Positions 10,672 to 58,525 of a stretch of 64,000 bases of DNA are shown here, in pieces. Source of the stretch: an uncultured Verrucomicrobiota bacterium (GTDB lineage Bacteria; Verrucomicrobiota; Verrucomicrobiia; Chthoniobacterales; JACTMZ01). A model generated the notes under the pieces. The model saw only the letters and a list, made by a program, of their open reading frames with translations. It ran no database searches and was not told the origin of the DNA. The position numbers were made by a program, and so were the translations under genes. The stretch is from assembly GCA_903953565.1 (NCBI GenBank), contig CAJBKE010000004.1, positions 62,001 through 126,000 of the forward strand, in the 5' to 3' direction. Numbering within the stretch: position 1 is the stretch's first letter; every line of letters starts with the position of its first letter.

Positions 10672-13302
10672 CTATTTCTGACGGAAGCCCTTGGCGTTGA
10701 TGCTGGGCTTGCGCAGGTCCTCGGGCAGTCCGAGCGGTTCGACGATTTCTTCTTGGTCCGTATCGTCTTCGGGACGCAGGGGTTGTCCTGCCGCATCCAT
10801 CAATCGTGCCGTAACAAAAACAATGAGGTTTTGTTTGATCTTCTGGTCGACCTCGGAACGGAAGAGGGTGCCAGCGTAGGGGATATCGCCAAGAACCGGG
10901 ACCTTGTCGTTCACCTTCTGCACGTCTTCCCTGATCAAACCGCCGAGAGCCACGGTCTGCCCATCCCAGATGCTCACATCCGTGGTGACTTTGCGGACGC
11001 TGAAGATGGGTTGGTTGATGACGTTCTCGGTGAGGACGGTTGGGGTGAAGAACTGATTTGCGCTGAGGATACTCAAAGGGTCGAGAGCGAGACTGGCGGC
11101 GCCCCCGACCAGGTTCCGCTGAGGCGCGAGGATTGGGCTCCCGTAGTTGACGAAGCCATCAAAGTCGACGACCTCGGGGCTCAGTTTGAGATCGATGGTA
11201 TAGCCGTCAGGTCCAACCACGGGTTCGACGACAAGGTTCACGCCGAGTTGGCGGGTGGTAAAATTCTCGGGGAAACTTGGCGTGACCACCGGGTCCTGTT
11301 CTTGAACAACGCCACCGACCGATGTGGATCCGCTACCCGTGTTTTGCGGCACTTGGGGAGGTGCGTAGTTCTCGGGATAGGGAAACTCGCGGCTGATGCT
11401 GATCGTGGCCTTTTCTCCGCTCTTTGTGGTGACCTTCGGGGCCGCCATGAGGTCGACGCCCTTTTTCTGGTTCAAAGCGCGGATGACCATCTGGAACTGC
11501 GGGTTGGTGAACACGCCTGAGATCGAGAAGAAACCGGGAGCTGGACCTGTTCCTCCGGTTACACCTGAATTACGGGCAAGGAGCGCGTTGAGGCTGTTGA
11601 CCGAGACCGCTGCGTCGGGTCCGGTTCCGCTTCCACTGCGGAGACCGCTGGTGATGGAGTCGCCACCAACGACACCACCTGTGCCTGGGTTTACGAAAGG
11701 CCACTGGCCTGCCTGCCCTTGCGGAATAATCGTTCCGCCGCTGCTGGCCAGGCCGGAGTCTCCGATGGAGAAAGGCCCGAGGGCCCAATCGAAGCCGAGT
11801 TCCTTGAGGTTGTTCTGCGAGATCTCGACAAACTTGGCCTCGATCTCGACCTGCGTGGGCTGTGCACCCATGGCTGCGTCGACCAGAGATTCGATCAGAT
11901 CGAGGTTTTCCATCGTGTTGCGCACGACCAAGCGGCTGGTTCCGGCGTTGAAATTCGCGCTCGTGCCCGGGGGGAAATCAATACCCTGCGACTCAAGAAA
12001 TTCCTTGGCGCCCTGCCGCGCACCGAGGCGCGCGCCCCCTGTGCCGACCTGCCGACCTGCCACTGCGTCAGCTTCCGTGTCGCCTCCGGCGACGCCTGTG
12101 ATGAAGCCGGGGGGCACCTTGAATTCGCGTTGCTCGAGCACGTCGGTAGGCTCGGAGAGAGGAACCAAGGACACGGCGAAAGGTTCCACCTTGACCTTCA
12201 AGCCGGCCAGAGTGGCAACGTAACGGAGAGCTTCGTAAAGAGGAACATTACTCAGGTTGAGAGTGATCCGGTTGTCGCCCGAGTAGAGGGGTGCGGCCGG
12301 CGCTTCGCCCTCCACTTCCAGCGCGGCGGAAGGCTGCGGTGCCGAGGCAGGCAACTTGACCACGATGTTGATGCCGCGGCGTTCCGGATCAGTTTCAGAG
12401 GTGTCCAAATCGCGGCTGCGCTGCTGCAGAAAACCGACTGCTTGGCGAACGGTGGCGTCGCGAAAGTCGACGCGCGGAATGATGATGCGGTTGAGGCGTC
12501 CGACCATGAGTTCGGTGCCGCGTCGTTCCTCGTCAAGTGCGGTGGAATCCGTGGTACGCGCCTCCACGAAACGACGCCTCGGACGCTCCCATGCCTTGTC
12601 CACCTGCCAGAGCATACGCGAACGCGTTTCGTTGTAAGCGCTGTCGTAGTAGCGCTGCTTTCCGACTTCGACCTGCTCCATGCCCCGGAAAGCGGCGGCA
12701 TTGTATTTGTCGACACTCAGAACTTGCTCGTAACGCTTTTGGGCGAGGTCGTAACGGCCGGAATCGAAATAGCCATTGGCTTCTTGGAGCAGCTTGTCCA
12801 CTTGCACACGGTCTTCGGCAAACTCCGGGGTAATGGTTTTGTTGAAGTAGTCGGGTTGCTCGAGTCGCGACAAAAAGACGGCAGCCGGCTGGTAGTTTGG
12901 GTTGTATTGCGGTTCAAGAACCTCGCGGGCCACGGCCTCCGCCTTCGCGTATTGTCCTTCGCTCACCAAAAACTCCGCGTAGCGGACGGCAGTGGAGGAG
13001 TAGCGGGAAAGCGCGCGGGCACGCAGAGAGCGCGTGGTCGGGCCGTCAGGCGTGAAGTCCACGGCTTGCTTGTAAGAGAGATAGGCCTGCTCAACGTTTC
13101 CTGCTTTGAGTGCGGCATCACCTCGGCGGAGAGCATCCTCGGCCAAGGCCAGTTCTTGCTGGCGGCGGGCAATTTCCCGGTCCGCATCGTTATCGATAGT
13201 GTAAAGCGGGGATTCTCCGCCGGAACCGGCATGGGCCGGTGAAGTACTCATGGCCGCAACGCCGACCGATACCAATCCAATGGCGAAAAGAAGCTTGCTC
13301 AT
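10672..13302 (-). CDS. Secretin (PilQ/GspD family), paralog B of an Amuc_1098-like pair
   Basis: 876-residue outer-membrane secretin. A signal peptide (about 1-25, ending SPAHA) precedes a TPR-like helical region (about 45-250, with QYNPNYQPAAVFLSRLEQPDYFNKT). An STN/N-domain stretch and the C-terminal secretin domain follow (FVEISQNNLKELGFDW, GFFSISGVFTNPQFQMVIRALNQKKGVDLMAAPKVTTKSG, DGQTVALGGLIREDVQKVNDKVPVLGDIPYAGTLFRS). The TPR plus secretin layout matches Akkermansia Amuc_1098. It overlaps the upstream paralog by ATGA and is the last operon gene before coaE. Compared with its twin it is longer, with a Gly/Ser-rich insert near residues 520-580 and an extra acidic-basic tail. Confidence 0.93.
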   Translation of the reverse strand: MSKLLFAIGLVSVGVAAMSTSPAHAGSGGESPLYTIDNDADREIARRQQELALAEDALRRGDAALKAGNVEQAYLSYKQAVDFTPDGPTTRSLRARALSRYSSTAVRYAEFLVSEGQYAKAEAVAREVLEPQYNPNYQPAAVFLSRLEQPDYFNKTITPEFAEDRVQVDKLLQEANGYFDSGRYDLAQKRYEQVLSVDKYNAAAFRGMEQVEVGKQRYYDSAYNETRSRMLWQVDKAWERPRRRFVEARTTDSTALDEERRGTELMVGRLNRIIIPRVDFRDATVRQAVGFLQQRSRDLDTSETDPERRGINIVVKLPASAPQPSAALEVEGEAPAAPLYSGDNRITLNLSNVPLYEALRYVATLAGLKVKVEPFAVSLVPLSEPTDVLEQREFKVPPGFITGVAGGDTEADAVAGRQVGTGGARLGARQGAKEFLESQGIDFPPGTSANFNAGTSRLVVRNTMENLDLIESLVDAAMGAQPTQVEIEAKFVEISQNNLKELGFDWALGPFSIGDSGLASSGGTIIPQGQAGQWPFVNPGTGGVVGGDSITSGLRSGSGTGPDAAVSVNSLNALLARNSGVTGGTGPAPGFFSISGVFTNPQFQMVIRALNQKKGVDLMAAPKVTTKSGEKATISISREFPYPENYAPPQVPQNTGSGSTSVGGVVQEQDPVVTPSFPENFTTRQLGVNLVVEPVVGPDGYTIDLKLSPEVVDFDGFVNYGSPILAPQRNLVGGAASLALDPLSILSANQFFTPTVLTENVINQPIFSVRKVTTDVSIWDGQTVALGGLIREDVQKVNDKVPVLGDIPYAGTLFRSEVDQKIKQNLIVFVTARLMDAAGQPLRPEDDTDQEEIVEPLGLPEDLRKPSINAKGFRQK

Positions 13303-15755
13303 TTTCCGGGCAGCGGCGGTTCAAGGGCCGCGGAGGCGGTATCAAGGGGCAGGTCGTCGACCAGTTCCACATCTCCCTCATCCATGACTTCCGCGACCAG
13401 CGGTTGGCCGGCGGGATCCATCAGGGTGGCGGTGACAAAGATAACCAGATTGCGTTTGATGTGCTGGTCTGACTGCGAACGGAAAAGCGCGCCGGCCACG
13501 GGCAGGTCGCCGAGCAAAGGTGTCTTATCATTGACCTTTTGCACGTCTTCCCGCATCAGGCCGCCGAGAACGACCGTCTGTCCGTCATAAATGTGCACGG
13601 AGGTGTCCACCTTGCGCTCGCTGAAGACCGGGTAGTTAATGACATTTTCCGTCACCACAATGCCGCGGTTGAGAATGGGCGAACCGTAGTTGATGAAACC
13701 CTCAAACTCCGTAACCTCGGGCACCAAGCGAAGGTCGATCGTGTAGTTGTCCGACCCCACTGTGGGAGACACCTCTAGTCGGACGCCGACGGGCTTCATT
13801 TTGAAGCTTTCCGGGGTGGCCGGGGTGATGGGTTGGGTGCCACTGCCGGTGGTTTGCGGGATTTGCGGTGGCGCGTAAACATCCGGATAGCGGAATTCTC
13901 TAACCACTTCCACCGTGGCGGTGGAACCGCTTTTTGTCGTCACCTTCGGCGCGGAGAGGACGTCGATGCCTTTCTTTTGATTGAGCGCACGAAGGACCAC
14001 CTGGAACTGCGGGTTGGTAAAGACGCCGGCCAAAGCGAGGACGCCGGCAGCGGGCCCGAGCGGGCTGCCGAAGAGAAGCCCGTCGAGGGCGTTGCCGGTG
14101 ACCGCAGTCTGGCCGCTGCGATTGCCGGCTGTGACGGGATTAACGCCGACCGGGACATCGGTGCCGGGATAAACAAAGGGATAGTTCGCTGTGCCTGCCG
14201 GGCCTACCGCGGTTGAGTTGAATTGATTGCCGGAGGTGCCGCCGCTGCCGAAGACGCCCGTCGTGCCAAAACCGAACTGTCCGAGGAGCCAATCAAACCC
14301 GAGTTCTTTCAGGTTGTTCTGGGAAATTTCGACGAACTTGGACTCGATCTCGACTTGGGGCGTGATTTCACCGGAGGAGCTTTCGACCAGCGCGTCCACC
14401 AGATCGAGATTCTCCTGGGTATTGCGGACAATCAGACGGCTGCTGCTCGCGATGAAGTTGGCGCTGGCGCCCGTGGGAAATTGGACTCCCTGTGACTCGA
14501 GATAAATTTTCGCACCGCTCTGGGCAGCAACGCCGGGTGTTTCGCTGCCGCCTCCGGACGGCGTGCTTGTGATGAATCCGGGCGGAACGCGGTATTCCTT
14601 GGTGATGAGTGTGTCCGTCGGTTCGCTCAAGGGAACGATGAGGACAGCGTAAGATTCGACCTTGAATTTGAGGTTGGCCAAGTTGGTGATGTAGGTCAGA
14701 GCTTCGCGCAGCGGCAGGTTGGCGAGATCAAGGGTCACCGTCTGCGAGGCAGCCGCTTGGTCGAGCTTCAAGACAATATTCACGCCACGCTCACCGGTCT
14801 CGACGGCTTCGGTATCAAGGGCCTCGGAGCGTTGGCGGAGGAACTCGATGGCTTCGCGCACTGTGGCGTCGGTGAAATTGATGCGAGGGATAACAATCTC
14901 GTCGAGCTTGCGGCTGATCGACTGCGTGCCTCGCGAGGTGAGGACGGGCTGCTCGATGACGGCGGCTGGCCCGAGGTCGACGCGGCGAACCGGTGTTTCC
15001 CATGCCTTGTCGACTTGCGTGATCATGGCGGCGCGGGTGTCGTTGTAGGCCGCATCGGCCACGCGCATTTTGCCCATGTTGACTTGCTCCATGCCACGGC
15101 GTGCGGCCACGTTATAGCGGTCGAGGCGCAACGCAGCCTCGTATTTGGCCGTGGCCTCGTCGAAGCGTCCGGAATCGTAAAGTCCTTGGCCTTCGTTCAG
15201 CAGGGTCTTCACTTCCTCCACCTTGGCCACGAATCCGGGCGTTACGGTCTTGTTGAAATAGTCCGGAGACTCGAGGCGGGCGAGGAGGCGTTGGGCGGGC
15301 TTGTAGTTCGGATTGTATTGCGGCTGAAGGATGACACTGACGGTTTCTTCGGCATCTTCCCAACGTCCTTCCTCGATGCGGGCCTCGGCCAAGCCCATCA
15401 CGGCTTTGGAAAAACCGTCTATCGCGCTCGCTCTGAGTTCGCGAACATTGGGCGCATCCGGCAGGGCATCGACGGCTGCTTTGTATTGGGTGTAAGCCGT
15501 CTCGTAGTCGCGCTCCATGAGGGCAACTGAGCCGCGTTGCATGGCCTGGGGAGCATAGTCTTCGGCCAACTGCATGCGCTTGGCGATTTCGAGTTCGGCT
15601 TGGGCCTCGACCCCGCCGAAAGAGGCTTGGCCGCTGCCGGGGCCAGCCCATAGCGGGCTAGCCAGGCAGCATAGCAGCGATGCCGCGAGAGCAGAGCAGT
15701 AGGATCTCTGGTCGCGGAGCGTGCTAGGGCTCGGTTGGGGGCTGCGGCGTGGCAT
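13299..15755 (-). CDS. Secretin (PilQ/GspD family), paralog A of an Amuc_1098-like pair
   Basis: 818-residue secretin with the same design as its downstream twin: signal peptide (about 1-37, cleavage near PLWAG), TPR-like repeats (note QYNPNYKPAQRLLARLESPDYFNKT), N-domains, and a secretin core with FVEISQNNLKELGFDW, VFTNPQFQVVLRALNQKKGIDVLSAPKVTTKSG and DGQTVVLGGLMREDVQKVNDK. Many segments are identical or nearly so between the two, indicating tandem duplication. ATG 15755 is inside the end of the upstream gene (32-base overlap) and is the only start that keeps the signal peptide. Secretins form the outer-membrane exit ring of type IV pili and type II secretion; here it would pair with the PilM-N and PilO-like proteins upstream. 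Confidence 0.93.
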   Translation of the reverse strand: MPRRSPQPSPSTLRDQRSYCSALAASLLCCLASPLWAGPGSGQASFGGVEAQAELEIAKRMQLAEDYAPQAMQRGSVALMERDYETAYTQYKAAVDALPDAPNVRELRASAIDGFSKAVMGLAEARIEEGRWEDAEETVSVILQPQYNPNYKPAQRLLARLESPDYFNKTVTPGFVAKVEEVKTLLNEGQGLYDSGRFDEATAKYEAALRLDRYNVAARRGMEQVNMGKMRVADAAYNDTRAAMITQVDKAWETPVRRVDLGPAAVIEQPVLTSRGTQSISRKLDEIVIPRINFTDATVREAIEFLRQRSEALDTEAVETGERGVNIVLKLDQAAASQTVTLDLANLPLREALTYITNLANLKFKVESYAVLIVPLSEPTDTLITKEYRVPPGFITSTPSGGGSETPGVAAQSGAKIYLESQGVQFPTGASANFIASSSRLIVRNTQENLDLVDALVESSSGEITPQVEIESKFVEISQNNLKELGFDWLLGQFGFGTTGVFGSGGTSGNQFNSTAVGPAGTANYPFVYPGTDVPVGVNPVTAGNRSGQTAVTGNALDGLLFGSPLGPAAGVLALAGVFTNPQFQVVLRALNQKKGIDVLSAPKVTTKSGSTATVEVVREFRYPDVYAPPQIPQTTGSGTQPITPATPESFKMKPVGVRLEVSPTVGSDNYTIDLRLVPEVTEFEGFINYGSPILNRGIVVTENVINYPVFSERKVDTSVHIYDGQTVVLGGLMREDVQKVNDKTPLLGDLPVAGALFRSQSDQHIKRNLVIFVTATLMDPAGQPLVAEVMDEGDVELVDDLPLDTASAALEPPLPGK

Positions 15756-16761
15756 TGATCTCGAGGCGCGGAATACTTAACCGTTCGCCAGAGGCGAGAT
15801 CCTGTATGGTGGCAGCTTCTTCAGATACGTCAACCAGCTTGTAACCCTGTCCAGGATCCAGTTCAAACTGCTGACCGGTGCGCAGGGCGACCTCTTTTCC
15901 TCCGCTTCGCGTATCCACCAAGGTGGCCAAGGAATACGGCGAGTCTTTGACCTCGCCCTGGGTTAGCTCGATTTTCAGGTTGTCCGCGGTATTCAACAGC
16001 GTGATGACCGGGACCTCCTCCTCGGAGTTGGTCTTGGGATTCAGGCGGTTGATCATGCGGGCCTCGACGAATTGGAGGGGGGTGGCCGTTTCGGTTTTGC
16101 GGCCATCGGGGCCGGTCTCGGACAGCGTGATCATCTCGCCCTTCTCGTAGAAGCGTGATTCGCCGGTGAGAGCACTTGGATCCTCTGCGCTGACCGTGTT
16201 GATTTGCACGCTTTTCAGATCGCCCTGCGGGAGAGATTCAAACTTGGTCCGGAGCTTGTCGATCTTCGTCGCCGACAAACGAAGTTTGGTCCACACCGGC
16301 GGCTTGGATGCATCGCTGACCGGACTGGCTCCCGCGCGGAATTCCTCGATGTTGGTAAACCCGTCGGTATCGGGATCTTTCCCTGCCAACTCCGGGTCGG
16401 TGTAATCCAAGCCATGCTTGAGGATCCACGCGTTATCGATGCCCGGATAGAGTTGCGCGTCGCTCTCGAAAATATCCACCAACTGTCCGTCGCGCAGGAG
16501 GTAGACACGGCTGACGAAGAGCGACCGGTCATACTCTTCCCACAGGCTCTTTGCAGGCGCGGCGAGTTTGCCTGCTTCATTTTGCAGGCGTCCCAGCACT
16601 TCGTTTGCGGCAAATTCCGCGCCCCGATCCCTGGGGGCAGGAGGTTGGTATTCAGATTGCAACGCGGAGAAGCTGCTCACTGCGTAGAAGGCAGCCGCGA
16701 CCAAAAGCAGCCCCGAGAGCAACAGGAGCAATCGCCCGTAGTTTGCTTTGACGTAATCCAT
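15724..16761 (-). CDS. Amuc_1099-like membrane-anchored protein
   Basis: 345-residue protein with one N-terminal membrane helix (about 9-29) and a large periplasmic region. I recognise no catalytic family. It contains a calcium-site-like stretch DPDTDGFTNIEEF (about 130-142), as found in thrombospondin type 3-like repeats. Two similar periplasmic modules seem to follow (TKLRLSATKIDKLRTKF; FVEARMINRLNPKTNSEEEVPVITLL), ending in a Pro-rich tail. Position and topology match Amuc_1099 of Akkermansia, between the Amuc_1100-like protein and the secretin. A PilP-like role bridging inner membrane and secretin is plausible but inferred from position only. Confidence 0.72.
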   Translation of the reverse strand: MDYVKANYGRLLLLLSGLLLVAAAFYAVSSFSALQSEYQPPAPRDRGAEFAANEVLGRLQNEAGKLAAPAKSLWEEYDRSLFVSRVYLLRDGQLVDIFESDAQLYPGIDNAWILKHGLDYTDPELAGKDPDTDGFTNIEEFRAGASPVSDASKPPVWTKLRLSATKIDKLRTKFESLPQGDLKSVQINTVSAEDPSALTGESRFYEKGEMITLSETGPDGRKTETATPLQFVEARMINRLNPKTNSEEEVPVITLLNTADNLKIELTQGEVKDSPYSLATLVDTRSGGKEVALRTGQQFELDPGQGYKLVDVSEEAATIQDLASGERLSIPRLEINATPQPPTEP

Positions 16762-16773
16762 GGCGCGTTGCTG

Positions 16774-17661
16774 CTATTCTTTGTCTGCGGCCGGGGTGAC
16801 CGAGACCGAGGCCAGACGAAGTTTTACGTTGAGGGTTTCTTTGCCGAACGCCACCGGAATCTGGCCGGATCCTTCGGTCGTGGCTGCCGTTTCCGCGGTC
16901 TCTTGGGTGGCACCTGCGGATTCCTTGGCCGGTGGCGAGGGGCTTGAGTTGGTCACGCTCACCAGACGAACCAAGACAACGGGCTGGGCGGTGATGATGG
17001 CCGAGAGCGCACCGCGAAAGGCCGACTGCTCGGCGACGAATTCCACGTCGAAAGGGGCCAACTCGACAGCCGCGAGTTGCGCTTTGGTTGGTGTATCCTG
17101 CTCCCCGGCGGTTTCGGGTCCTTCGGCGCGCAGTGGCGCGCGCTCGATGCCGACAAGTTGACGAATCCCGGATTTGAGGAGCAACCCGGTTACATTGGCG
17201 ATTGTCTCAAGTTGCTGCCCGAGAACCGGCGCTGCCGCTTCGGGAGGCGGTTGGGCCTTGTAAGCCGAGAAACCAAGATAGAAATCCTCTGGCAGACTAA
17301 CGCCGGCACTGGTGGCCGCCTTCTCCGCAGTCGCCGCCGCAGCGCTCAGCTTGTCTTGGAAATCACGGGGCGCAAGAGTCGGGTCGAGAGGTATGCTTTG
17401 ACGAGCGACCTCGGCAGCGAGGTCACCCAGAATTTTGGCGGCCGATTCGGCCTCTTCCTCGGCTGCTTTGAGATTCGCCTCGTTCGGGAAAGGCTTGGCC
17501 GACTGGAGACTGGCCAGCGAACTGTTGTTCGAGGCAAAGGCATCCGTCTGCTCGATGAAGGCTGTGTGTTGCGTGTAGGCGAAGTAAAGGCCAGCGAGCG
17601 TGAGGATGGCCGTGGAGGCAACCAGGGCGCCGACGAAAGGATTGTCTTTGAACCAGTTCAT
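16774..17661 (-). CDS. Amuc_1100-like (PilO-like) pilus-associated membrane protein
   Basis: 295-residue protein: membrane helix at about 9-29, a coiled coil (about 35-110), then two alpha-beta modules (about 110-185 and 200-285) split by a low-complexity linker rich in Pro, Ala, Thr and Glu. The domain order, length and several local patterns agree with Akkermansia Amuc_1100 as I remember it: FQDKL in the coiled coil, a LGFSAYKAQ-like strand, LGQQLETIANVTGLLLKSGI, and a final KETLNVKLRL strand. This is also the layout of PilO/GspM assembly proteins. ATG 17661 touches the PilM-N stop (TGATG); a GTG one codon upstream is an alternative. Amuc_1100 is known as a TLR2-signalling protein, a property that need not apply here. 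Confidence 0.78.
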   Translation of the reverse strand: MNWFKDNPFVGALVASTAILTLAGLYFAYTQHTAFIEQTDAFASNNSSLASLQSAKPFPNEANLKAAEEEAESAAKILGDLAAEVARQSIPLDPTLAPRDFQDKLSAAAATAEKAATSAGVSLPEDFYLGFSAYKAQPPPEAAAPVLGQQLETIANVTGLLLKSGIRQLVGIERAPLRAEGPETAGEQDTPTKAQLAAVELAPFDVEFVAEQSAFRGALSAIITAQPVVLVRLVSVTNSSPSPPAKESAGATQETAETAATTEGSGQIPVAFGKETLNVKLRLASVSVTPAADKE

Positions 17662-19406
17662 CACAGGGGGATGGGGGTTTTCAGGGGCACGATGAGCCGG
17701 TATTCATAGGCCCACTCGTCGCCGCTCTGCGCGGCGCGGAGATCGACGACGGCCTCTTTGTTCTCATCCGTGATGCTGAAGAGCGGCGACTCGGAGAGCT
17801 TCTTCACGAATTCATCGACCACGGCGGGGCCGGCCTCGTTCTCCAAGTAAAGTCCTTCGACCCTGAGTGCGGTGACCGCTGGTTTTTGTTCTTTGCCGCT
17901 TTCGCCGCTGGCGTTGTCTTGTTCGTTCCCGCCCGGTTTGTCCGTGCCGCCTTCGGCAAAACCCGCAACGTCGGGATGAGGAGAGAGTTTGGTGATCCAG
18001 AGAAATTTTTCGGGCTGGCTTTGGTTGAGCGCGTTGATGATCTCCGCCCAACCTGTGCGGAGGATAGGCAAGGCCACTAGGTCCGCCCCATCCTCCAGCA
18101 ATTGGTCACGCTGCTTGGTGAATCCGGCCATGCGATCAGCAGTCTGCTGCAGGGGGGCAATAGACGATTGGACCTGCTCGTTGAGTCGCGCAAGCGTGCT
18201 TGTCGCGCTCTGGTAGTAGAGGCCCAGCAACGCGACCGAGGCCACCAACCCGGCTGCCGCTGCTACGAGGAAGGGCCGGTGCTTGGTTGCCTCCTCCGAT
18301 CGAAGAAGCGAGGCGGCTTGGAGGCTGACGCCGAGGGGGCACTCGGTGCCGAGTTCGCGCAACGCCACGCCCACGCACTCTCCGAGACGATGGGCCACAC
18401 CGGCCACGGAAGATTGATCGACGCCCGCTCCGACCGAAATGCGGCGAAGTGGATTGAAGAACTCGATGGGCAAGGAAAGTTTCTCGTTGAAGAACTCGAG
18501 GGTGTAAGGCATCGACGCACCGCCGCCGGCGAGAAAGACCCGCATCGGCGCGGCACCTTTCTGGGTCGTCCGGTAGAACGTGACGGAACGCGTAATCTCG
18601 TTGTGGATACGCGTCATGACCGTGCGGGCAATTTTCCCCATTTCGGCGACGTCCTCGTTCTTGGCGCCGGAATAGTTGCCGGGAGGAGGGATCAGGCCCT
18701 CGACGCGCTTGAATTCCTCGACGTCGCCGAAGCTGCGCGGCTCGAACTTTTTGTGCAGGGCGGCCGTGATGGAATTGCCGCCGACGGGCAGGGTGCGGAT
18801 GAAGACGTCCTGTCCTTCGACAAAAATCAGGTTGGTGGCTCGCGCGCCGATGTCGATGAGCAGCGAACAACCTTGGACGTCGGGATAGTTGTAGCGGAAT
18901 GCGTTGTAGAGCGCCGTCGGGGAGGTCTCGACGATCTGGGGCGTCAACTTCGATGCAGCGAGGACCTCGACGGTGGACTCGAGTGCGTCGGTTTTGGTGG
19001 CGACGAGAAGGGCATTGATCTTGTCATCACCCTTGTCCGGCAGCACCTGATAGGTCCACGCCACTTCCTCGATGGGATAGGGGACATTTTGCTGTGCTTC
19101 GAAAAAAAGAACCTGATCGATCTTGTCGGGCTCGACCTTGGGAATCTGGACAAAACGGGTGAAGACGCCCTGCGAGGGGATGGCGCATCCGCAGGCACCA
19201 CCTTTCCAAGCCAACTGCGTTTTCATTTCTCCGAGCACCACCTTGAGTTGTCCGAACCGCGAACCGTCCGCCGCGGGGTCGGGGATCAGGTCCGATTGGG
19301 CAAAGCCCGTGAGCGTGATCCCACCGCCGACCGAAGGCTGGAAGACCGCCATGGTGACGGTCTGCATGCCGAGGTTGATGGCGGCGGCGCGGTCGGGCTT
19401 CTTCAT
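17661..19406 (-). CDS. PilM-PilN fusion protein (Amuc_1101-like)
   Basis: 581-residue protein. Residues 1-365 form an actin-like PilM domain with LIDIGARATN (about 183-192), PVGGNSIT and the FLAGGGASMP nucleotide-site motif (291-300), plus QVLFFEAQQNVPYP, typical of PilM/GspL. A single membrane helix follows at about 379-398. The remainder is a PilN-like region with a coiled coil and the segment ILRTGWAEIINALNQSQPEKFLWITKL. Separate PilM and PilN genes in classical pilus operons are thus one chain here. ATG 19406 was chosen because homology begins there; the frame stays open to 19502. It would form the inner-membrane platform with the Amuc_1100-like protein. Confidence 0.88.
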   Translation of the reverse strand: MKKPDRAAAINLGMQTVTMAVFQPSVGGGITLTGFAQSDLIPDPAADGSRFGQLKVVLGEMKTQLAWKGGACGCAIPSQGVFTRFVQIPKVEPDKIDQVLFFEAQQNVPYPIEEVAWTYQVLPDKGDDKINALLVATKTDALESTVEVLAASKLTPQIVETSPTALYNAFRYNYPDVQGCSLLIDIGARATNLIFVEGQDVFIRTLPVGGNSITAALHKKFEPRSFGDVEEFKRVEGLIPPPGNYSGAKNEDVAEMGKIARTVMTRIHNEITRSVTFYRTTQKGAAPMRVFLAGGGASMPYTLEFFNEKLSLPIEFFNPLRRISVGAGVDQSSVAGVAHRLGECVGVALRELGTECPLGVSLQAASLLRSEEATKHRPFLVAAAAGLVASVALLGLYYQSATSTLARLNEQVQSSIAPLQQTADRMAGFTKQRDQLLEDGADLVALPILRTGWAEIINALNQSQPEKFLWITKLSPHPDVAGFAEGGTDKPGGNEQDNASGESGKEQKPAVTALRVEGLYLENEAGPAVVDEFVKKLSESPLFSITDENKEAVVDLRAAQSGDEWAYEYRLIVPLKTPIPL

Positions 19407-19443: not shown

Positions 19444-20064
19444 TCACATGCCGGCCGGGCGGGTCTTGATCGCCTCGTAATAGTCCCAAACCAAAGGAGC
19501 AAACGGTGTTTCGTTTTTGTTCAGAACATAGCCGCTGACCTGCTGGAGTGGGCTCCACCATTGGCCGCGCCCTTTCCAGCTGCCCTCGGCAACCAACTGT
19601 CCCTGCTTCGTGATGGTGATGCCGACATCCTTGATGGCAGAGGAGGCACTGGTCGGCAGTTTGCCTTCGAAAAAACGCTCCAAAGTCCGCGGGCTGATAT
19701 ACATGACGGAATTCAGCGCCTTCGCATTGGGGATAGCGACGTGAGTCACCGAACCCGTGAGCAGGGTCCCGTCCTTGTTCTCGCGGTTCGGGTTGTTCAG
19801 AAGGATGAAGTAATTGATGGTGACCTCATCGAGGAACTTCGCGTTCTTGTCCTTGGGTTGCCAATCGAAAGTGACCTCGACTTCGAGGAAGTCCTTGTTC
19901 TTGGTGATCCGCTTGTTTTTGGGGCCGAAGTTCACATTGTATTCCGGCGTGGTCACCAGATCGGGCGTGATCTTGACGATGGCAAATTCACCGCCGGTGG
20001 TTTGCGCGATGGCGGCCGCGCCAAAGGAGAGCGTGCAGAGGGCGAGTAGGAGGGATCTTTTCAT
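19444..20064 (-). CDS. Amuc_1102-like secreted protein
   Basis: 206-residue secreted protein with a clear signal peptide (MKRSLLLALCTLSFGAAAIAQ). The mature part is beta-rich (VEVTFDWQPKDKNAKFLDEVTINYFILLNN; DVGITITKQGQLVAEGSWKG), consistent with the immunoglobulin-like fold reported for Amuc_1102. It is the first gene of the pilus-like operon, 38 bases ahead of the PilM-N start. The spacer upstream (20065-20125) should hold the operon promoter. Function is unknown. Confidence 0.75.
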   Translation of the reverse strand: MKRSLLLALCTLSFGAAAIAQTTGGEFAIVKITPDLVTTPEYNVNFGPKNKRITKNKDFLEVEVTFDWQPKDKNAKFLDEVTINYFILLNNPNRENKDGTLLTGSVTHVAIPNAKALNSVMYISPRTLERFFEGKLPTSASSAIKDVGITITKQGQLVAEGSWKGRGQWWSPLQQVSGYVLNKNETPFAPLVWDYYEAIKTRPAGM

Positions 20065-58451: not shown

Positions 58452-58525
58452 GCAGCCATAGCTCAATTGGATAGAGCATCTGACTACGGATCAGAAGGTT
58501 TGAGGTTCGAGTCCTCATGGCTGCA
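58452..58525 (+). tRNA. tRNA-Arg (ACG anticodon)
   Basis: 74-base cloverleaf: acceptor GCAGCCA (58452-58458) pairs with TGGCTGC (58518-58524), discriminator A. The D-arm is GCTCAATTGGATAGAGC, the anticodon stem TCTGA/TCAGA holds loop CTACGGA with anticodon ACG, and the T-arm GAGGTTCGAGTCCTC follows. CCA is not encoded. A short T-run follows at once. It reads CGN arginine codons after wobble A-to-I editing. Confidence 0.97.

Follow-up and report, generated by a model that had tools for sequence, protein, structure and literature searches.

A candidate PilO of the Amuc_1100 family encoded near paired secretins in a Chthoniobacterales bacterium

INTRODUCTION

Amuc_1100 of Akkermansia muciniphila is usually labeled an outer membrane protein (PMC5332112; PMC13420330). 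Immunofluorescence places it at the Akkermansia cell surface (PMC5332112), and according to a review it is located on pili (PMC10688800). Another review likens its crystal structure to proteins of type IV pili and type II secretion (PMC13119276), and the likeness itself was therefore already known. The surrounding gene cluster is reported across Akkermansia, with A. glycaniphila given as lacking Amuc_1100 in the available text of that study (PMC6828834), and secretin homologues are reported in other Verrucomicrobia (PMC4960237). In the available part of a related study, the genes amuc_1099-1102 constitute a locus named MUL2, which is linked to attachment and is conserved in Verrucomicrobiales and less so in Chthoniobacterales; amuc_1099 and amuc_1100 are termed uncharacterized (PMC13174399).

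Through MUL2, the occurrence of the cluster beyond Akkermansia is thus partly known, as far as the available text of that study goes, and its novelty is modest. In the open-licence literature searched, neither the naming of Amuc_1100 as PilO nor paired secretins in Chthoniobacterales was found. Judged against that literature, what appears to be new here is the reading of Amuc_1100 as the PilO of the phylum, together with the counts of PilO and PilT that accompany it, and the paired secretins. We describe below a locus of this kind from an uncultured member of the Chthoniobacterales.

RESULTS

The window, by which we mean the whole 64,000-nucleotide stretch of DNA that was analyzed, carries on its minus strand, at positions 16774 to 17661, a gene for a PilO-like protein of 295 residues, with an ATG at 17661 and a stop codon ending at 16774. 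A preliminary description of this DNA had called the product an Amuc_1100-type protein, and the assignment holds. Against the NCBIfam model NF038287 (Amuc_1100_fam) the protein scored 180.7 bits (E = 4.6e-53), just above the cut-off of 180, whereas the same gene scored 177.9 bits, slightly below that cut-off, in a genome-wide search with the model. Membership in the Amuc_1100 family is borderline by score and clear by fold. A phmmer search of PDB sequences with the window protein returned three Amuc_1100 entries only (E = 2e-7 to 1e-6), and a profile of seven sequences matched the Amuc_1100 entries at about 1e-21. The protein has a short N terminus, one membrane helix that its sequence places at about residues 9 to 28, long helices, and an alpha-beta-beta/alpha-beta-beta core. 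It has family, fold, and position in a five-gene order in common with Amuc_1100 of A. muciniphila (PDB 6kny, 6lad, and 6laf; NF038287). It differs in coming from a Chthoniobacterales relative rather than from a gut Akkermansia, in having an extra second secretin in its cluster, and in sequence, being about 22% identical to the Amuc_1100 of locus L017, whose product shows no difference from the PDB construct over 279 residues. In the genus to which that locus belongs (g11), some genomes match the Amuc_1100 profile at E values of about 1e-21 to 1e-33, far weaker than the 3e-52 of the window protein, and in one genome (G301) the profile match is absent.

The gene is one of six that follow each other on the minus strand, closely spaced or with no gap at all, and its start overlaps the stop codon of the PilM-like gene as TGATG. 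NCBIfam Amuc families match all six genes, five of which reach the curated cut-off, and the order Amuc_1102-1101-1100-1099-1098 is complete. Genes and order are the same as in the MUL2 locus (amuc_1099-1102) of Akkermansiaceae, as given in the available text (PMC13174399). A promoter scan gave no signal above chance. The sole tRNA gene found in the window, a tRNA-Arg (ACG), lies at 58452 to 58525 on the plus strand.

The first cluster gene (19444 to 20064, minus strand) encodes a small Amuc_1102-family protein of 206 residues with an N-terminal hydrophobic leader (NF042424, 115.8 bits; cut-off, 55), which matched Amuc_1102 of PDB entry 7dsz at E = 3.2e-9. The second (17661 to 19406, minus strand) encodes an Amuc_1101-family protein, for which we took the ATG at 19406 within a longer TTG frame reaching 19502. 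This protein scored 548.6 bits against its own model, for which the cut-off is 650, and passed the TIGR01175 pilM model (137.1 bits; cut-off, 133). A profile of seven Amuc_1101 proteins matched PilM (3jc8_Ma) at positions 10 to 364 (E = 8e-50) and Myxococcus xanthus PilN (3jc8_Na) at positions 381 to 492 (E = 1.8e-6). By profile match, the Amuc_1101 protein is a PilM-PilN fusion, so that PilM and PilN form one protein in this cluster, unlike in type IVa pilus machines. The usual order of these genes is pilMNOPQ; with Amuc_1101 taken as the fusion, the order of the cluster therefore reads as PilM/N, O, (P?), Q. The PilM-N and secretin context pointed out in the preliminary description was likewise recovered, with a PilM-like protein that includes a PilN part and two secretins nearby.

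The gene in the PilP position (15724 to 16761, minus strand) encodes an Amuc_1099-family protein of 345 residues (NF042425, 129.5 bits; cut-off, 50) with an N-terminal membrane helix and a beta-rich C-terminal half. Profile searches of Amuc_1099 against PilP or GspC gave no match. No structure resembled its model (mean pLDDT, 68.7) convincingly in fold searches, and PilP and GspC were absent among the matches listed; it is the gene order that suggests a PilP role. Across the family, a D-x-D-x-D-x-F motif followed by E is invariant (12 of 12 rows). This loop, in an envelope protein in the PilP position, is reminiscent of calcium-binding loops of the TSP3 or EF-hand type, and Pfam TSP3_bac was weakly matched by two of the 12 members (best E = 0.0095).

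The spread of the family was examined in a sample of 387 genomes of the phylum, with the Amuc_1100 family called at E ≤ 1e-5 and PilT at E ≤ 1e-60. The Amuc_1100 family (NF038287) was present in 275 genomes (36 above the cut-off), PilT in 373, and Pfam PilO in 4. NF038287 also matched the genome of Bacillus subtilis, one of 14 used as controls, and the weakest matches are therefore insecure. Genomes with PilT had an Amuc_1100 match in 271 of 373 cases, versus 4 of 14 without PilT (Fisher P = 0.001, which is indicative only, as the genomes are related). Within the order of the source organism, its own genome counted, 7 of 11 genomes matched the family, all at E = 3.7e-30 or better. A scan of named genomes recovered six relatives (identity, 34 to 55%) from Chthoniobacterales, Chthoniobacter, or Verrucomicrobia metagenome-assembled genomes; some of the six carry lake-like isolate names. 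Gene order was also widely kept: among the 30 best-scoring loci of the phylum search, Amuc_1101 preceded and Amuc_1099 followed the gene in all 30. In 14 wider DNA stretches, some of them round the same genes, Amuc_1101 adjoined in 14 and Amuc_1102 in 12, and where the stretches reached far enough Amuc_1098 was present in 12 of 12 and Amuc_1099 in 11 of 12. Amuc_1100 is not special to Akkermansia. The emphasis of the preliminary description on a protein outside Akkermansia is true of the window protein, but such an occurrence is not unusual, and a wider spread has been published, as the available text indicates (PMC13174399). Its proposal that a structural, PilO-like job is the ancestral role is favored by the breadth of the family (275/387), set against only 4/387 genomes for Pfam PilO.

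An AlphaFold2 model of the window protein, built from seven sequences, had a moderate mean pLDDT of 64.5. Most core blocks reached the 80s or low 90s, and residues 1 to 44 fell below 50, so that the membrane helix is placed from the sequence and not from the model. The modeled secondary structure consists of long N-terminal helices, then helix-strand-strand and again helix-strand-strand. Structure superposition on Amuc_1100 and PilO, as suggested in the preliminary description, showed likeness to both, with Amuc_1100 first and PilO next. The top Foldseek rows were ten chains from three Amuc_1100 entries (E = 5.7e-12, or about 6e-12, to 3e-11), followed by PilO of M. xanthus (2.4e-3) and of Pseudomonas aeruginosa (1.2e-2). 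VIA-align gave Z = 22.6 against Amuc_1100 6kny_A (rmsd 2.1, 169 residues), Z = 9.3 against PilO 2rjz (rmsd 5.2, 126 residues), and Z = 8.7 against 3jc8 chain Oa, which we take to be PilO (rmsd 2.7, 97 residues); the PilO values are only slightly higher than those of unrelated histidine kinases (Z = 7.6 and lower).

Sequence comparisons drew on a wide alignment, A4, of 28 sequences, which left out ten loci nearly identical to L013 (L015, L017 to L023, L025, and L026) as well as L033 (a near-copy of L032), L065 (the same gene as L031), L066, L067, L068, L069, and L072. Pfam PilO (PF04350) did not match the window protein and was matched by 1 of the 28 family members (E = 0.026). Searched against PDB sequences, profiles A1 and A4 found only Amuc_1100 at a convincing E value, and no PilO. 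Compared with the PilO of type IVa pilus machines (P. aeruginosa 2rjz and M. xanthus 3jc8), the window protein is alike in core fold, N-terminal membrane helix, and placement between PilN and the secretin; it differs in lacking both a significant sequence match and a Pfam PilO match. Two features by which a PilO may be recognized were found, namely, a membrane helix and coiled helices followed by a ferredoxin-like core, in a moderate-confidence model, and a gene beside PilM/PilN and near a secretin. The window protein is most likely a PilO by way of working, rather than one that would be filed as a PF04350 member. Alongside the family, fold, gene order, PilM-PilN fusion, and motor genes observed, we consider it highly probable that this protein is the PilO of the phylum, the inner-membrane-anchored alignment protein of a type IV pilus machine.

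Where the protein resides was addressed through conservation in 26 of 37 aligned sequences, kept after removal of those at least 80% identical to one retained. Of the regions compared, conservation was highest in the eight residues ahead of the membrane helix, at 3.16 bits per column; the helix had 2.5 bits per column, and other regions 1.52 to 2.78. Trp occupies position 3 in 22 of the 22 rows having a residue there, and Asn occupies position 7 in 23 of 26. The conserved short end, presumably cytoplasmic, is more in keeping with an anchor that is retained than with a signal that is removed, which favors a membrane-anchored protein over a cleaved outer membrane protein. A retained anchor would run counter to the usual outer membrane label of Amuc_1100. 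It would also run counter to a reading that we consider unlikely, in which the protein sits in the outer membrane or on the pilus surface, has adhesion or signaling to a host or surface as its main job, and merely relies on the pilus genes for export. Although immunofluorescence and fraction data on the Akkermansia protein (PMC5332112), its reported place on pili (PMC10688800), and the link of the cluster, as MUL2, to attachment in the available text (PMC13174399) all point toward such a surface protein, the fold is PilO-like, the gene occupies the place of pilO, flanked by PilM/N and the secretin side, in all of the 30 best-scoring loci, and so well conserved an N terminus before the helix is unexpected for a signal peptide that is removed.

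The source genome (2.86 Mb in 70 contigs, 95.7% complete) encodes one PilM, seven T2SSE-type ATPase matches, and three T2SSF-type genes (six domain matches); Pfam PilO had no match in it at E ≤ 1. Contig C26 (locus L061) carries two tandem genes for PilT-family ATPases that score above the cut-off, and a pilin-like gene lies about 2.4 kb from them. Two tandem PilB/GspE-type ATPases on contig C70 (L060) and a lone PilC/GspF-type gene on contig C59 (L062) scored below the cut-offs of their models. Likely pilus motors are scattered over these three contigs, and the cluster presumably works with the motor genes there. Contigs C68 and C37 have further secretins, with T2SSE-type ATPases nearby. The folds of GspM and PilO are related, and GspE/GspF-type genes are present in the genome; the cluster might supply a type II secretion system with its inner membrane platform and its pore, the protein being a GspM, as a match of NCBIfam T2SS_GspM_XpsM to 1 of 28 family members (E = 0.0077) would also allow. 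We regard this as improbable, however, given a partner that is PilM-PilN by profile, a cluster without GspE or GspF, other secretins that do have such ATPases nearby (C68 and C37), and fold searches that rank PilO first after Amuc_1100. Slightly less probable still is a protein with some other envelope job that shares with PilO only a common ferredoxin-like arrangement: the PilO Z scores do lie close to those of the unrelated rows and a PilO sequence match is absent, but PilO is the top family after Amuc_1100 in fold searches and the neighbors are PilM-PilN and secretins.

The cluster ends in two Amuc_1098-family secretins. The first (13299 to 15755, minus strand; 818 residues; NF042912, 829.3 bits) has a frame that overlaps the preceding gene, and its true start may lie downstream; the second (10672 to 13302, minus strand) has 876 residues and scored 863.7 bits (cut-off for both, 750). 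They are 50% identical to each other. Tandem pairs were found in the window and at six other loci, and two loci from family f2 of the same order had a single secretin. When 20 secretins were placed in a tree, first copies (seven) grouped apart from second copies (also seven), with support of 98/99 for each group and matching branching inside the two, indicating that the duplication predates these lineages and that both copies were kept. This ancient, retained duplication of the secretin in Chthoniobacterales and the conserved N terminus of the Amuc_1100-family protein are the less expected of the findings. In contrast to the lower conservation in Chthoniobacterales stated in the available text of the MUL2 study (PMC13174399), most loci of the order seen here are complete, and most have two tandem secretins.

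DISCUSSION

As the PilO of a type IV pilus machine, the window protein would be anchored in the inner membrane by a single N-terminal helix, with a short, conserved stretch left in the cytoplasm; its ferredoxin-like core, in the periplasm, may pair with the PilN portion of the upstream-encoded PilM-PilN fusion. With Amuc_1099 in the putative PilP place, it would form an alignment complex linking the cytoplasmic PilM ring and the PilB-, PilT-, and PilC-type motors, encoded elsewhere, to the outer membrane pore made by the secretin. Any host signaling by Amuc_1100 in Akkermansia would be a secondary use of a machine part, perhaps the later use that the preliminary description had supposed. Counting against the PilO reading are the lack of a PilO match by sequence, the four genomes without PilT that retain an Amuc_1100 match, the lack of a PilP match for Amuc_1099, and the published surface or pilus location of Amuc_1100.

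A bolder extension, on which we are nearly evenly divided but lean slightly against, is that Amuc_1100 is the PilO of most Verrucomicrobiota type IV pilus machines, and hence an inner membrane part rather than an outer membrane protein, and that in Chthoniobacterales a single PilMN-O-P platform serves two anciently duplicated secretins, either mixed in one pore or alternating for two kinds of pilus. The paired secretins pose a second question, which could be addressed by gene removal.

These findings suggest that Amuc_1100, a protein famous in gut health, is an ordinary part of the pilus machine in many bacteria of the phylum. Amuc_1100 is widely studied as a probiotic effector, and if it is the PilO of the phylum, claims of its surface exposure need re-testing. 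The environmental Verrucomicrobiota counterparts, with the same fold and no mammalian host, would then be natural controls for distinguishing Toll-like receptor activity particular to Akkermansia from activity that is general.
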